Origin: Halonatronum saccharophilum DSM 13868
GTDB lineage: Bacteria; Bacillota; Halanaerobiia; Halobacteroidales; Halobacteroidaceae
Assembly (NCBI RefSeq): GCF_000517025.1
Contig: NZ_KI912094.1
Span: 364,707-428,706 of the forward strand
Length of the DNA: 64,000 nt
Reading direction: 5' to 3'
In this document: positions 5,405 to 60,292 of the stretch, piece after piece
Layout: each line of letters starts with the position of its first letter
Position numbering within the stretch: the stretch's first letter is position 1
The notes under the pieces: generated by a model
The model's database searches: none
The model's input: only the letters and a program-made list of their open reading frames with translations
What the model was told of the DNA's origin: nothing
Translations under genes and position numbers: made by a program

Positions 5405-5480
5405 TATAAATCCCCCTTAAATAAAGTTATTAAAAATTATAAAAATGCGCTGTGCTAATATTAAAGTGATGCTTAATAGG

Positions 5481-7648
<2,168 letters not shown>

Positions 7649-10659: not shown

Positions 10660-10678
10660 ATTCCTCCCTTTTTATTAA

Positions 10679-10865
10679 TTGATAGTTGTCAATTGATAAT
10701 TGATAGTTATAAGTCAAAAGCTGAAACAATTATAAAATTTCTATTTATATAATAATTTCAGTTTTAGATTTCAAAAAACAAATCCTTTATACTAAAAAAA
10801 TCATAAATATATATTAACTTTTTTCACTTCAAGATCTTTACTATCAATTATCAATTATCAATTTT
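10679..10865. repeat. Heptad-repeat element (AATTGAT flavour), pcrA-ppaC gap
   Basis: The left arm at 10679-10710 consists of ATTGATA/GTTGATA-like units and the inverted right arm at 10840-10865 of ATCAATT units. The 130-base AT-rich spacer holds no reading frame. The right arm ends four bases before the pcrA stop codon. Confidence 0.8.
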
Positions 10866-27751: not shown

Positions 27752-28483
27752 TTATCCTTTCAAAGAGTTTCCATAATAATAGTAGTATTGATTGCTACTA
27801 TCTTTAACTGGACACTTTGTCATTACCACACCAATGAGATTGGCCCTAGCCTTATCTAGTAAATCCTTAGCTTGAGCTACCATCTGTTCTTGAGCTTGAT
27901 GAGAAGCTACTACAATAATAGTTCCATCAACCTTGCTTGATAAAACAGCAGCATCAGTAACAGCAATGACTGGGGGAGTATCGATAAATAGAATATCTGC
28001 TTCCTCTTCGGCTTTATCAATTAAATCATCCATCCTTTTTGAATTTAAAAGTTCAGCAGGATTTGGAGGTGTAGTTCCTGTAGTTATTACTCGCAAATTA
28101 TCTATATCAGTATCCTTAATCCCCTCTTCAAAGCTTATATCCCCTGTTAAAATATTGCTCAAGCCTTCAAAATTGGTCAAATTATAAAACTTGTGTTGCA
28201 TTGGCTTTCTCATATCTGCATCAATTATTATTACCTTTTTCCCATTTTGAGCCATTGAAATTGCAAGATTAGCAACAGTTAAAGACTTCCCTTCACTTGG
28301 CCCGCTACTGGTTAAAAGAATCTTCTTTAATGGATTATCAGGGCTTAAAAAACTGATATTAGTCCTAATACTTCGATAAGCTTCAGAGGCAGGAGACTTA
28401 GGGTTATGATGAACTATAAGCTCATTATTTCTAGTCCTTAGATTTTGCCTACTATCATTCTTTTTCTTAAAAAGATTAAACAT
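27752..28483 (-). CDS. cpsD: CpsD/CapB-type bacterial tyrosine kinase
   Basis: A 243-residue cytoplasmic BY-kinase. Walker A is SSGPSEGKSLT, Walker A' is VIIIDADMRKP and Walker B is ILFIDTPPV. The C-terminus has a cluster of five tyrosines (Y233-Y237), the autophosphorylation tail. It couples with the membrane activator Wzz encoded immediately upstream (start and stop share a base) and is dephosphorylated by the neighbouring PHP phosphatase. The controlled process is polymerisation and export of a surface polysaccharide. Confidence 0.95.
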   Translation of the reverse strand: MFNLFKKKNDSRQNLRTRNNELIVHHNPKSPASEAYRSIRTNISFLSPDNPLKKILLTSSGPSEGKSLTVANLAISMAQNGKKVIIIDADMRKPMQHKFYNLTNFEGLSNILTGDISFEEGIKDTDIDNLRVITTGTTPPNPAELLNSKRMDDLIDKAEEEADILFIDTPPVIAVTDAAVLSSKVDGTIIVVASHQAQEQMVAQAKDLLDKARANLIGVVMTKCPVKDSSNQYYYYYGNSLKG

Positions 28484-29940
28484 TACATATCTCCCCTTCC
28501 ATAACCTTGGGAATGATCTATCTCACCTAAGTCTGGGGTAATACCTAAGACAGGTAACCCTGTCAACCTTTCAATATCATTTGCATCCTTAACTGTCGTA
28601 TCTAAAAATTCAATTAAAAAGATTATACCTACAGCTATAAAAATAGCTAAAACAAGAGCTATTGCCATATTCAACTTAATTCGTGGACTAATAGGATTCT
28701 CGTTAATTATAGCCTCATCAATTACAATCATATCTGAAGATTGCATCGCTCTTTGGATATTAATTTCTTCTCTACGCTCCATTAACATAGTATAAAGAGT
28801 TTCTGCTATCTTAGTTTCTCTTTGTAACCTAGCCAAATCCAGTTCACGCTTAGGTAAAACAGAAACCTTTCCTTCTAAAGAAGCCACTTCATCTTTATAA
28901 GCCTCTAATTTTACTTTAGAAGCAATTATTTTAGTTTGTAACTGAATAAAGTCAGCTTCTAAACTTCTATATAATGGGTTAACACTTTCAGTTCGAGAAC
29001 TGACAATCTCATTTACCTCTTCACCTATTCTACTTTCCAACTCTTTAATCTTAGTTCTAAGTTGTCTAACTTGCGGATGATTATCAGTATAATTCTCCAA
29101 AAGCCCTACCAATTCTATCTCCAAATCAGCCAATCTAGCCTTTGAACTTCTAATTATCGGATTCTCAGTAATATTCCTACTTGAGACTATTTGGGCATCC
29201 TTTCTCTCTAGATTATTCTCAACTTCAGCCAAACTAGCTTTAGCCTGCTTTAGCTCTACCTCTCCTTCAGCAATCCCCATCTCTAAATTAAATAAACGAT
29301 TTAAGGATGCTTCACCCTGCTTGCTAGGATAAATTACTCCATGCTCATCCTTATACTCTAAAAGTGAATTTTCTAACCTAATTAAATTATCTTCTACTTC
29401 AGTCAATTGATCATTAATAAAATCTGAAGCCCCAGTAAGATTAGCCTGATTTATTCTTTGATTCTCCCTTTGAAAGGTACTCACTAAAGTATTGGCTATC
29501 TCCTTGGCTATAACTGGATCTGGATAATCAGCTGTAATCGTTAAAAGATTAGTATCTCCACCACTACTTATGCTAACATTATTTCTTAAAGAGCTAGTTC
29601 TAATATATTCCCCACTCTCCTCATCTCTTAAATCTAATTTTTGGATTACACCATCTAATATTCTCCTGCTTTTTAAAATTTGAGTATAAGTAGCAGCTTT
29701 ATTAGATCTAGAACCAAACCCACCCATCATCCCATCAGTAAATAAAGCTTCCATACCGCCATCCTCTTCTATCATAACTAAGGTAGAAGATTGATAGATT
29801 CTAGTCATACGATTACTAAAAACAAAAGATACTATAAGGGCCAAAGCAGCAAAACCTATAATAATCCACTTCTTAGCCCATAATATATTAAAATATTCCC
29901 TTAAATCTATCTCTACAAAATCTTGGTTCATCTCTTCCAT
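28483..29940 (-). CDS. Polysaccharide chain-length determinant (Wzz/CapA family)
   Basis: 485 residues with membrane segments near 26-44 (WIIIGFAALALIVSFVFS) and 427-447 (MAIALVLAIFIAVGIIFLIEF) bracketing a long coiled-coil periplasmic part with the GNVR region (VLPKRELDLARLQRE). It lacks a fused kinase; the kinase is separate, as in Gram-positive systems. It regulates polymer length by activating CpsD. The C-terminal DVNDIERLTGLPVLG-like tail (DANDIERLTGLPVLGITPDL) contacts the kinase. The next gene upstream is the four-helix-bundle gene in the repeat element, so the promoter may lie there. Confidence 0.93.
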   Translation of the reverse strand: MEEMNQDFVEIDLREYFNILWAKKWIIIGFAALALIVSFVFSNRMTRIYQSSTLVMIEEDGGMEALFTDGMMGGFGSRSNKAATYTQILKSRRILDGVIQKLDLRDEESGEYIRTSSLRNNVSISSGGDTNLLTITADYPDPVIAKEIANTLVSTFQRENQRINQANLTGASDFINDQLTEVEDNLIRLENSLLEYKDEHGVIYPSKQGEASLNRLFNLEMGIAEGEVELKQAKASLAEVENNLERKDAQIVSSRNITENPIIRSSKARLADLEIELVGLLENYTDNHPQVRQLRTKIKELESRIGEEVNEIVSSRTESVNPLYRSLEADFIQLQTKIIASKVKLEAYKDEVASLEGKVSVLPKRELDLARLQRETKIAETLYTMLMERREEINIQRAMQSSDMIVIDEAIINENPISPRIKLNMAIALVLAIFIAVGIIFLIEFLDTTVKDANDIERLTGLPVLGITPDLGEIDHSQGYGRGDM

Positions 29941-29963: not shown

Positions 29964-30493
29964 AGTTGAAAATTGATAGTTGATAATTAATAGTTAAAAC
30001 CAAATTGTTAATTATCACCTTTGCTGGTTTTTATTATAGCAACCAATATTCTAATTATTTCTCTTGCATCAGATAAAAGACTATCAACCTTATTATATTC
30101 TACAAGTTCTGCTGCTACTAATAATTCAAGCCAGTACTCTGTCTCAACAGCCTCCTTTAATGCAATCGATAACTTTGAAATAAAGTCTTTCTTACTCTGC
30201 CCTTCTAAACCTTCTCTAATATTGGCACCTACACTGGTTCCAGATTTTAATAATTGTTTACCTATAACATACTCTCTTCTTTCTTCTAAAAACTTATACA
30301 ATTTTACCACCTTAACAGAAAAATCAAACGCTTTAATATATACAATACTATCTTTTCTGCTCATAATAACCACCCTTTGATTTTAATATTAATTCTAGTG
30401 GTTATTATTACCAAACGTTCAACTTTTATTCTTCAACTATCAACTGATCTTCATACTCTTAAACTTTCAATTATCAATTATCCACTCTCAATT
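29964..30493. repeat. Heptad-repeat element carrying a four-helix-bundle gene
   Basis: The left arm at 29964-29998 (GTTGAAA, ATTGATA, GTTGATA, ATTAATA, GTTAAAA) and the inverted right arms at 30434-30449 (CAACTATCAACTGATC) and 30461-30493 (CAATTATCAATTATCC and on) enclose 430 bases. That interior is almost filled by the gene at 30008-30364. The right arm overlaps the stop codon of the polysaccharide export gene. The arms are of the same flavour as the gene-less elements at 10679, 39383 and 60100. Confidence 0.75.
30008..30364 (-). CDS. Four-helix-bundle protein (23S rRNA IVP / Avd-like)
   Basis: About 118 residues of the S23/IVP family: FDFSVKVVKLYKFLEERREY, the hallmark LLKSGTSVGANIREG, then KKDFISKLSIALKEAVETEY and WLELLVAAELV. 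Relatives are encoded in 23S rRNA intervening sequences, and the Avd subunit of diversity-generating retroelements has the same fold, but most free-standing copies have no assigned role. ATG 30364 is preferred to GTG 30373 because AAGGGTGG lies before it. No reverse transcriptase is nearby. It lies between Wza-like and Wzz genes but is unrelated to polysaccharide work and is bracketed by inverted heptad arrays, which suggests that it travels with them. Confidence 0.9.
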   Translation of the reverse strand: MSRKDSIVYIKAFDFSVKVVKLYKFLEERREYVIGKQLLKSGTSVGANIREGLEGQSKKDFISKLSIALKEAVETEYWLELLVAAELVEYNKVDSLLSDAREIIRILVAIIKTSKGDN

Positions 30494-31360
30494 TATTAGA
30501 TCATTTATTTCATTAATTCCACCAACAAAGAAGAATAAATTTCTCCAAAATGACATCCTTCTTGGGTTAAATCTAGACTTATTGATATAAAGAGTAGCAC
30601 CATCTTCTAAGTTTAAATTATCATCTCCACCCTTTAGAATATCTCTTAAATCTAAGCTTCTACTTTCTCCATTAAGAGTATATTCAATTTTATTAGAAGC
30701 CTCTGAGCTAACTCCTCCAGCTTTAGCAATTAAGTCCTTTATACTACTTCCTTCTTTTAAGTCATAACTACCTGAGCTTCTAATTTCACCTAAAATATTA
30801 ACTTCAATACTATTCTCACCTAAGTATAAGGTGTCTCCAGCTTTAAGAATCATATTATCTATATTATCATTACCTTCTAAGAGATCCTTAAGATTTAGAT
30901 TATAAGATTCTTCCTTACGATTTAACCTTAAATCTTCTAAGTTGGCACGATTTGTTGGCCCTCCAGCTAAAGAGATTAAATCCAAGACCCGATCTCCACC
31001 TCTTATCTCATAACTTCCTGGATTAGCTACCTCACCTAAAAGCCTTACTCTAACTCTTCTATACTCTTTTAAAGTTACATTGACATAAGACCTATCGATT
31101 TTGATATAATTAATCAACTCTTCCCATATTAAATCTGTAACTTGGCTAACCTTCAAGCCTTCAACCTCAACTTCACCTAAAAGCGGAAAATTAATCATTC
31201 CAGATGGATCAACCCTAACCTCTCTTTGCAGATCATTATGACCCCAGATAGATATGTAGATACGATCATCTACTTGTAACCTATAATCTGCTCCTTCTAC
31301 TGGAAGAGCAGCTCCTATAATAGTAAAAATAAAAATAAGTATAAGGACCGACTTCTTCAT
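30488..31360 (-). CDS. Polysaccharide export protein (Wza-like, SLBB domains)
   Basis: 290 residues. The signal peptide ends at about VEGA|DY. A Poly_export domain follows (YRLQVDDRIYISIWGHNDL, VRVDPSGMINFPLLGEVEV), then two SLBB domains (VRLLGEVANPGSYEIRGGD and VNILGEIRSSGSYDLKEG), each followed by a second half. There is no lipobox cysteine. The C-terminus (PRRMSFWRNLFFFVGGIN) is amphipathic and could insert in the outer membrane. With Wzz, CpsD and CpsB it forms a complete export and regulation module. Shorter than enteric Wza (about 380), as usual in diderm Firmicutes. Confidence 0.92.
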   Translation of the reverse strand: MKKSVLILIFIFTIIGAALPVEGADYRLQVDDRIYISIWGHNDLQREVRVDPSGMINFPLLGEVEVEGLKVSQVTDLIWEELINYIKIDRSYVNVTLKEYRRVRVRLLGEVANPGSYEIRGGDRVLDLISLAGGPTNRANLEDLRLNRKEESYNLNLKDLLEGNDNIDNMILKAGDTLYLGENSIEVNILGEIRSSGSYDLKEGSSIKDLIAKAGGVSSEASNKIEYTLNGESRSLDLRDILKGGDDNLNLEDGATLYINKSRFNPRRMSFWRNLFFFVGGINEINDLIN

Positions 31361-36771: not shown

Positions 36772-36815
36772 CTTATTTAATCTACCCCTTCTACTCTTAT
36801 TTTAGTTCTTAATTT

Positions 36816-37574
36816 TTATTTATTATTCTTCTCCCAAAGCTTTATATATTTTAAGAACTGATAGTAAGAAGATAGAACTGATAATATAAACCCTTGCTTC
36901 CCAAGCAAAAATCCCTTTTTAAAGATAAACTTCTTGATAAACTCCAATAAAGGTCTAAAAATTATATAAGCTATCCCCTTCTTCTTACCCTTTAAATACT
37001 TTTCATTAGCATCTAAAGTAGTATAATGATTGATTTTATTAAGGTAGTGGGCCAAATCCCTATAAGTGTAATGAATCAAGGAATTTTGCAAATCTATAAT
37101 ATTCCTCTTAAGATTTGGGCTCTCATGCACCTTCCCACTATAACGAATATGAGATTTAAATAAACGCAGAGTATGATCAGGATACCATCCACAGTATTTA
37201 ATCCATTTACCTAAAAAAAAGTTCTTCCTTGGAACTCTATATCCATCCCCTTTAGCTTCTTTAAGTACAGAATTTATCTCCTCTTTAAGGACTGAAGTTA
37301 TCCGTTCATCTGCATCAACTACAAGAACCCAATCTGATTCTATTCTATCTAGCCCATAATTTCTCTGACTAGCAAAGTCATCAAAGCTTCTCTGATAAAC
37401 CTTATCCGTATATTCTTTTGCAAGCTCTAAAGTCCTATCCTTACTATAAGAGTCAACTAGGACTATCTCATCAGCCCATTTAACACTCTCCAGGCACTCT
37501 TTAATATTCTCCTCTTCATTATATGTAAGAAGCAAAACTCCTAATGTCACTATTCGCTCCCCCTTTTTTATCAA
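36816..37574 (-). CDS. Glycosyltransferase family 2 (WaaE/KdtX-like)
   Basis: 252 residues. The GT-A domain starts with LLLTYNEEENIKECLESVKW and has the metal-binding VVDADERI. The later FFLGKWIKYCGWYPDHTLRL and KVHESPNLK are typical of the WaaE/LpsC beta-1,4-glucosyltransferase group that acts on LPS inner-core heptose. A C-terminal amphipathic or membrane region (FIFKKGFLLGKQGFILSVL) would bind the inner membrane. Next to the ParB-like gene (12-base gap). Confidence 0.9.
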   Translation of the reverse strand: MIKKGERIVTLGVLLLTYNEEENIKECLESVKWADEIVLVDSYSKDRTLELAKEYTDKVYQRSFDDFASQRNYGLDRIESDWVLVVDADERITSVLKEEINSVLKEAKGDGYRVPRKNFFLGKWIKYCGWYPDHTLRLFKSHIRYSGKVHESPNLKRNIIDLQNSLIHYTYRDLAHYLNKINHYTTLDANEKYLKGKKKGIAYIIFRPLLEFIKKFIFKKGFLLGKQGFILSVLSSYYQFLKYIKLWEKNNK

Positions 37575-41876: not shown

Positions 41877-41898
41877 ATGCGCACTCCTTGTTATTAAC

Positions 41899-41985
41899 CA
41901 TCATACATCAGCCTTCAGCCATCAGCTTAAAACTCCTAGACATTTAAACTTTGGCTGATAGCTGACGGCTGATAGCTGACAGCTA
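41899..41985. repeat. Compact heptad-repeat element (AGCTGAT flavour)
   Basis: Left arm at 41899-41927 (ATCATACATCAGCCTTCAGC then CATCAGCT), 23-base spacer, inverted right arm at 41951-41985 (GGCTGATAGCTGACGGCTGA and on). It lies immediately after the lptD stop codon and forms a strong hairpin between lptD and waaA. Confidence 0.75.
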
Positions 41986-49519: not shown

Positions 49520-49701
49520 TAGCTGTCAGTCGTCAGCCTTCAGGCTTCAGCTAAAACCTTTAAATAAATCTTATAAAAGGCAGGAGTGCAAATCTGCACG
49601 CCTGCCTTTTATTAATAACAGCTATACCAATCACAATCCAAGCGTTGTTAGACTCTTGAGATTTGGCTGACTGCTGATAGCTGATAGCTAATAGCTGTCA
49701 A
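49520..49701. repeat. Heptad-repeat element (AGCTGAT flavour) enclosing a terminator
   Basis: Left arm at 49520-49551 (AGCTGTCAGTCGTCAGCC and on), inverted right arm at 49674-49699 (GGCTGACTGCTGATAGCTGA then TAGCTA). The spacer holds the porin terminator. The right arm ends two bases before the porin stop codon. Confidence 0.75.
49575..49610 (-). terminator. Intrinsic terminator after the SLH porin
   Basis: Arms AAAAGGCAGGAGTGCA / TGCACGCCTGCCTTTT with one mismatch form a strong GC-rich hairpin inside the repeat element, about 90 bases past the porin stop. Confidence 0.8.
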
Positions 49702-60099: not shown

Positions 60100-60292
60100 C
60101 AGTTTAAAATTGATAATTGATAGTTGATAGTTAAAAACTCAAAACTAAATTACCGATAATCTAAATCTAATCTGTAAAGTCCCACCTTTTCCTGAATAAA
60201 CTTAATAATCATCTTTAAAAGAACTATATCTCACTACCAACTACTGTTTAGGTCTTTACTATCAATTATCAATTATCCACTATCAATTGCTC
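60100..60292. repeat. Heptad-repeat element (AATTGAT flavour), sat-transporter gap
   Basis: The left arm at 60100-60136 (AAATTGATAATTGATAGTTG and on) and the inverted right arm at 60258-60291 (ACTATCAATTATCAATTATC and on) flank a 120-base spacer without a gene. The right arm reaches the stop codon of the SLC13 gene. Confidence 0.8.

Follow-up and report, generated by a model that had tools for sequence, protein, structure and literature searches.

An IVP-family gene between phased inverted heptad arms in Halonatronum saccharophilum, probably a widespread mobile element akin to 23S rRNA intervening sequences

The 530 nt segment that separates a wza-like gene from wzz in Halonatronum saccharophilum DSM 13868 probably represents a widespread mobile element, in which an IVP-family gene is enclosed by two inverted arms of five phased heptads each, which is of the same kind as the intervening sequences (IVS) of 23S rRNA, and which would move by means of a pentameric protein and a hairpin. 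The segment was analysed within a stretch of 64,000 nt (contig NZ_KI912094.1, hereafter the window). Sequence comparison shows that the two arms of a locus correspond to each other and are passed on together with the gene, and that gene-less arm pairs have been amplified as separate families. The features of the element and of related sites in the window are collected in Table 1.

Table 1. Positions in the window of the IVP element, its parts and neighbours, and of related sites.
Feature	Position	Strand	Remarks
Whole element (arm, IVP gene, arm)	29964..30493	-	530 nt
5′ arm on the sense strand of the gene	30462..30493	-	32 nt, five ARTK units: AATTGAG AGTGGAT AATTGAT AATTGAA AGTT
3′ arm, inverted	29964..29995	+	32 nt; the + strand shows five ARTK units: AGTTGAA AATTGAT AGTTGAT AATTAAT AGTT
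IVP / S23p / four-helix-bundle gene	30008..30373	-	121 aa, GTG start
Inner partial heptad array, between 5′ arm and gene	30418..30445	-	inverted repeats I3, I6, I9
wza stop codon	30488..30490	-	contributed by unit 1 of the arm (AATTGA)
Upstream host gene, wza-like (Poly_export / SLBB)	30488..31360	-	PF02563
Downstream host gene, wzz (chain length determinant)	28483..29940	-	PF02706
Empty site of the L014 element	36772..36824		in G010 this junction of two glycosyltransferase genes holds ~598 nt
Gene-less element, focal-arm heptads	60108..60290		similarity of arms
Gene-less element, same heptad type as focal element	10676..10863		TRF and array comparison
Gene-less element, amplified AATGAGT family, hairpin ends	5480..5670		heptads match arms of IVP gene L001

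The earlier note on this DNA, made from the letters alone, had described a gene of the IVP/Avd family between inverted heptad arrays, and this description was borne out. The ORF scores 102 bits against PF05635 (cut-off 33.8) and 112.7 bits against TIGR02436 (cut-off 24). Positions 29964-29998 pair with 30459-30494 at 79-83% complementarity (inverted repeats I1, I2 and I4), and a period of 7 or 14 was found by TRF in both arms. Under the heptad rule A[AG]T[TG]NNN, with cores at 7-nt spacing, exactly five A[AG]T[TG] cores are present in each arm, spread over 32 nt. IVP is the sole gene between the arms, the ORF on the opposite strand (30021-30380) being its antisense frame. Among the ORFs of the element there is neither a transposase nor a reverse transcriptase, and it thus does not qualify as an IS or autonomous transposon. 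The predicted fold of its transcript, in which the arms are paired, is better than that of shuffled sequences (z -2.65).

Conservation of the gene at its locus had been named in the earlier note as a finding that would speak against a mobile element, and the gene proved to be absent from this locus in two other genera. Homology between the window and genome G012 is interrupted from about 29956 to about 30496, and wzz and wza are only 47 nt apart in G012 and 62 nt apart in G006, which belong to two other genera, while the window has about 540 nt more. A second case, with the unit missing from relatives of Orenia, is L014 in G010, where two glycosyltransferase genes are separated by 598 nt, as compared to 22 nt in G012, 23 nt in G011, 79 nt in G007 and 52 nt in the window. 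Three further cases, all from Nostoc plasmids, could be resolved at base level. L262 carries an element of 422 nt where four sister Nostoc plasmid loci have 188 nt of other sequence. An element of 466 nt (L265-L267) replaces 328 nt within a DNA cytosine methyltransferase gene, which is intact in L275 and L276. In L261, 61 nt at the cas1 3′ end have given way to 586 nt; the gap between cas2 and cas1 is 2 nt in L277. In all three cases the ends of the insert are occupied by the heptad arms or are only a few bases away from them. Two of the targets at the left junction read GGACAATTCGAC and AGACAATTAAAT, with an AATT core at the point where the arm begins. Between 61 and 328 nt of the target were lost, at insertion or soon after it, and the breakpoints coincide with the arms. 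Alignment of occupied and empty sites shows that arms and gene are mobile as one unit.

It had also been claimed that the gene has no functional link to the polysaccharide operon around it. This is too simple, as most members of the focal clade in the order (seven or eight) are found in polysaccharide clusters, each in a different slot. Besides the element in the window these are L010, L011, L014, L019, L020, L021 and L022, and the slots are those between wza and wzz, between SIS/CBS (kdsD-like) and HAD (kdsC-like) genes, at a sugar transferase, between GT4 and GT2, between two GT9 genes, between CpsD-like and CpsB genes, at a ManC-like gene and at Wzz. This clustering would be in line with a host regulatory gene, the product of which binds heptad arrays and thereby controls nearby operons such as those for surface polysaccharide, and a regulatory role has indeed been proposed for TAACTGA arrays near start codons (PMC4679880). 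However, no two members share a slot, the slots that were tested are empty elsewhere, and other members interrupt a methyltransferase gene, separate cas2 from cas1 or belong to drmD-methyltransferase loci. We therefore give a host regulator very little probability, and a mobile element remains the preferred reading.

Several of the members on cyanobacterial plasmids lie in defence loci (cas, drmD). Target choice, tolerance of insertions or mobility of the clusters themselves may underlie such locations in polysaccharide and defence regions. In L261 and L263 the IVP gene is placed between cas2 and cas1, and in L104, L105 and L264 between drmD or a helicase gene and a methyltransferase gene. The 23S rRNA IVP has been listed among CRISPR-associated proteins (PMC10910872), and IVP elements inside cyanobacterial defence loci may explain this listing. 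The corresponding drmD-methyltransferase slot of Oscillatoria is occupied by another ORF, of 200 aa and without a Pfam match, beside GACTCCC heptad arrays (L270, 1262-1864).

Arms are not a peculiarity of the element in the window. The order has 22 IVP genes, distributed over 9 of the 13 genomes, and most of them are adjoined by period-7 runs, the heptad being a different one at almost every locus. For a wider search, a profile built from one clade was used; all 22 members from the order were too diverse when aligned. The scan of GTDB genomes added 80 further IVP genes from Bacteroidota, Bacillota, Acidobacteriota, Elusimicrobiota, Thermodesulfobacteriota, Peregrinibacteriota and other phyla. 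In the 350-nt flanks of 102 homologues the mean score of period-7 runs is 20.2 on the 5′ side and 13.7 on the 3′ side; the means for periods 4-6 and 8-12 in the same flanks are 4.1-4.9, so that only period 7 is enriched. We carried out the comparison with other genes that the earlier note had suggested, and matched inverted arms were found for 76 of 96 IVP genes but only for 6 of 192 control ORFs from the contigs that carry these genes (odds ratio 118, p = 5e-43). Arms that flank IVP genes are thus the rule and not a chance finding, and most other family members do have arrays; a lack of these had been named in the note as a point against its proposal.

The two arms of a locus resemble each other closely. 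When the 5′ flank is compared with the reverse complement of the 3′ flank, the median arm-pair score is 20 for true pairs and 9 for mismatched loci, and the match may be perfect over long distances (41/41 in L051, 34/34 in L028, 25/25 in L098), odd units being present in both arms. The pooled unit can be written ARTKNAN, with A (0.89), A/G, T (0.83), T/G, any base, A (0.61), any base. On the sense strand of the gene the purine-rich arm is on the 5′ side and its complement on the 3′ side; a search in the opposite orientation yielded far fewer chains.

About one fifth of the homologues lack clear arms, for example L009, L017, L094 and the clade L257-L259, which counts against our interpretation. 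The contigs of the arm-less, IVP-like clade L257-L259 are labelled as phage or viral, but the neighbouring genes look bacterial by eye (xylulokinase-like, aminopeptidase-like, GuaA-like). Phage and viral contigs had been considered as DGR controls and were given up; there were few matches, and the three that were examined resemble bacterial DNA with free-standing, arm-less IVP genes.

Similarity of the arms decreases with divergence of the IVP proteins (Mantel r = 0.32, p <= 0.0005). Close proteins share their heptads (L262 and L264 both have AATTCGT) and distant ones do not. Such co-divergence would be expected if protein and arms evolve together, but plain linkage would give the same result, and it is no proof of recognition.

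The number of units in an arm has a sharp mode at five, which is found in 31 of 101 5′ arms and in 40 of 103 3′ arms; four units occur in 12 and 16 arms, respectively, and six units in 5 and 5. The mode is retained when only one sequence per 70% protein cluster is counted (18 5′ arms and 23 3′ arms of up to 69). Many arms are expanded or eroded from five units, which does not favour our interpretation, and the 5′ arms of L006, L014, L044 and L068 are plainly expanded. Such expansions, together with the excess of heptamer repeats in bacteria that has been attributed to slippage or regulation (PMC4692102, PMC4679880, PMC2700814), could be taken to mean that the arrays are a simple-sequence effect, either generated by slippage at fragile intergenic sites where IVP genes merely land, or independent regulatory repeats. 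Slippage, however, would give a decaying distribution of unit counts rather than a peak at five. The two arms are inverted copies matched within the locus and hence more than mere period-7 runs, their orientation relative to the gene is fixed, and arms and gene are absent together at empty sites. A simple-sequence effect is already largely refuted by these results and we regard it as very unlikely. The three loci L265, L266 and L267 represent the same plasmid element in three Nostoc strains; L265 and L266 have five units in both arms and L267 has four in both, as if the arms had changed together, in this one case.

The closest solved relative, which supplies the fold, is 2RLD (E 2.8e-40 with a profile of the focal clade), and five chains are listed in this entry as well as in 2GSC, another solved relative. 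In TRAP, one subunit binds per repeat unit. Given the five-unit mode and the five chains, an equivalent arrangement with one IVP subunit per heptad is a natural hypothesis. Two properties of the protein family do not favour our interpretation of the element. IVP proteins carry only a small positive net charge (median +2.5), and to our knowledge they lack a catalytic domain.

Gene-less look-alikes of the element, which the earlier note had reported from the window, are real (5511-5633, 10676-10863 and 60108-60290, among others). Over 31 nt, odd unit included, the 5′ arm of the focal element (30463-30493) shares 93.5% identity with one arm of the gene-less element at 60108-60290. In ~464 kb sampled from the host genome (G000), period-7 arrays occur 12-14 times per 100 kb and arrays with other periods are close to zero. 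The AATGAGT family has at least 40 MITE-like copies, and seven of them do not differ from each other along 151 nt. The end hairpin of this family was counted 103 times in the genome, the reversed pattern not once. These elements are MITE-like in that they are short, lack a gene, have terminal inverted repeats and reach a high copy number. The family, represented in the window at 5480-5670 and at about 100 other sites of the genome, was amplified recently, with hairpin ends TATAGTAATAAAG...CTTTATTACTATA around the heptads. A match to the arms of IVP gene L001 from the same genome (E = 3e-7, with two sequences compared) covers its heptads together with the neighbouring GTAAAACC. The view of the focal segment as a coding-competent element that has non-autonomous relatives and carries no transposase or reverse transcriptase of its own is supported.

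The further suggestion that the shorter elements are derivatives of the gene-carrying ones holds in part: non-autonomous relatives do exist, but some of them have no counterpart in a resident IVP gene. Gene-less heptads resemble the arms of resident IVP genes in G000 (0.42 versus 0.05 on average) and in G010 (0.21 versus 0.03), and such a resemblance is absent in G007. When compared with every IVP arm of the order, they had their top match more often in a foreign IVP gene. The assumption that gene-less heptads always match the resident IVP was dropped, as the arrays of G007 are unlike the arms of its own IVP genes. It was also assumed at one point that genomes without IVP are free of arrays, and in the census, which covered the genomes other than G005, G009 and G012, G001 and G011 had 0.5 and 0.8 arrays per 100 kb as compared to 3-12 in genomes with IVP; alignment, however, revealed about 20 arms of the AGTTGAC type in the IVP-less G011, which counts against dependence on a resident IVP. 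Given the sharing in G000 and G010, its absence from G007 and the arms in G011, the gene-less copies appear to include both active families and remnants of former ones.

For the gene-less family of G000, conserved hairpin ends TATAGTAATAAAG...CTTTATTACT are found outside the heptads, and similar ATAAAG/CTTTAT ends occur on heptad elements of G010 and G007. Long terminal repeats also extend past the heptads in L036 and L077. These ends could belong to a conventional transposase that is encoded elsewhere and acts in trans, in which case IVP would be a passenger and the heptads a part of the terminal repeats, as in MITEs. We consider this distinctly unlikely. The ends outside the heptads are lineage-specific while the heptad rule is common across lineages, IVP homologues of many phyla bear arms without visibly common transposase ends, and within the focal arms IVP is the only gene. 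Replacement of 61-328 nt of the target without a visible duplication would be unusual for a DDE transposase. The lack of a readable target-site duplication is a point against our interpretation; none was recognised consistently in the flanks of 30 gene-less copies. MITEs, REP/RAYT elements and repeats derived from IS200/IS605 are likewise short, gene-less, palindromic and amplified, as are the present ones with more than 100 copies, but they differ from the present elements, which have period-7 arms and the gene-carrying relatives of which hold IVP instead of a Y1/HUH or DDE transposase.

Avd, the accessory protein of DGRs, is a homologue of IVP from the same superfamily and works with a reverse transcriptase (PMC10053308). 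IVP might accordingly be the Avd-like partner of a reverse transcriptase that acts in trans, of the group II intron or DGR type, so that the element moves via an RNA hairpin. Three RVT_1 frames are encoded in the host genome; at 453-497 aa they are about as long as group II intron proteins, which would be compatible with such retromobility. None of its three IVP genes, however, is adjoined by a reverse transcriptase; RVT_1 was found on contigs C8 and C3 (at C3:93083, ~78 kb from L001) and none near C5:394747. Tested by adjacency to a reverse transcriptase, the focal element is not a DGR. Retromobility is in our view unlikely, and an element moved by IVP and its arms is the reading we retain.

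The closest known systems are the IVS found in 23S rRNA of Leptospira and Coxiella. These have a length of about 430-530 nt, carry one IVP ORF, have complementary termini that form a long stem, and are sporadic and horizontally acquired, as is the case here. The IVS of Coxiella (428-444 nt) encodes S23p, a protein of the IVP family, its terminal inverted repeats form a 28-bp stem, and it is excised by RNase III (PMC4990558). As in the focal element, heptamers are found at its termini and are in tandem at the 5′ end, where GACAGAT heptamers precede the gene in a number that varies between strains (PMC4990558). The elements described here are thus not of a wholly new kind, as might have been concluded from the earlier note. 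The rRNA IVS are located inside rRNA helices, while the loci gathered here are found in protein operons and plasmid genes and are accompanied by dispersed gene-less families; four short rRNA probes detected no rRNA genes beside them. The focal element has the IVP ORF, the stem-forming termini and the terminal heptamers and differs in its location between wza and wzz. Since all IVS features that can be tested except for location in rRNA are present, it would be of the same kind but is not itself an rRNA IVS. It is best read as an element of the 23S rRNA IVS kind outside rRNA, this kind being far more widespread than known. What appears to be new is that a kind of element previously known only from inside rRNA genes is found between ordinary genes across many phyla. 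The protein of the Coxiella IVS is thought not to be made (PMC4990558), which counts against our interpretation.

Heptamer repeats have also been described from Xanthomonas and Nostoc (GGGAATC, GGGGATT), Beggiatoaceae (TAACTGA) and Geobacter metallireducens. They share the period of 7, occur partly as inverted pairs and often consist of a handful of units, but have been described as quadruplex or regulatory sequences. In the three papers on heptamer repeats cited above, which are from the open-licence literature, no link to IVP genes is drawn; a prior description elsewhere is possible.

The mechanism that we propose is as follows. A homopentamer of IVP would bind the arms with one subunit per heptad and would hold one strand, of single-stranded DNA or of RNA, as a hairpin. 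New copies of this hairpin might be made at other sites by the replication or repair functions of the host, possibly with a polymerase provided in trans, and capture at AATT-like sites could proceed by host annealing or template switching. Capture at such sites and the loss of tens to hundreds of target bases fit better with single-strand annealing or template switching than with a cut-and-paste transposase. The claim that the mechanism is a new one is unproven. In RNA, the paired arms would be a substrate of RNase III, by analogy with the rRNA case, and the element would be cut out of transcripts, which would make insertion into operons and rRNA tolerable.

A more far-reaching view is that an unrecognised class of mobile elements exists in many phyla, which lacks its own transposase or reverse transcriptase. 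A pentamer of the four-helix-bundle protein would read the five heptads of each arm, much as TRAP does with its repeats, and guide the hairpin to new sites, and gene-less copies would parasitise this system; rRNA IVS, several heptamer families and perhaps the ancestor of the DGR protein Avd would be facets of it. We put this forward tentatively and lean slightly against it. PF05635 is common in bacteria, yet no role has been assigned to it outside DGRs, and a defined DNA structure makes its role testable, the arms being a concrete candidate ligand with five units for five subunits. Rather separate observations would be joined in this way: the intervening sequences of rRNA, the heptamer repeats that bacterial genomes contain in excess, the origin of Avd and the listing of IVP genes beside CRISPR loci. 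A new way for DNA to spread would be added, should the element move with no enzyme of its own.

Two further observations concern heptad arrays. A run of 180 nt of TTACTCA-type heptads occurs in L107 (2809-2988), and there is no IVP gene on that stretch of contig C5. At 41898-41984 and 49533-49697 the window contains inverted heptad pairs of another type (GCTGATA/TATCAGC) and of opposite polarity, with the pyrimidine-type arm on the left and the purine-type arm on the right.
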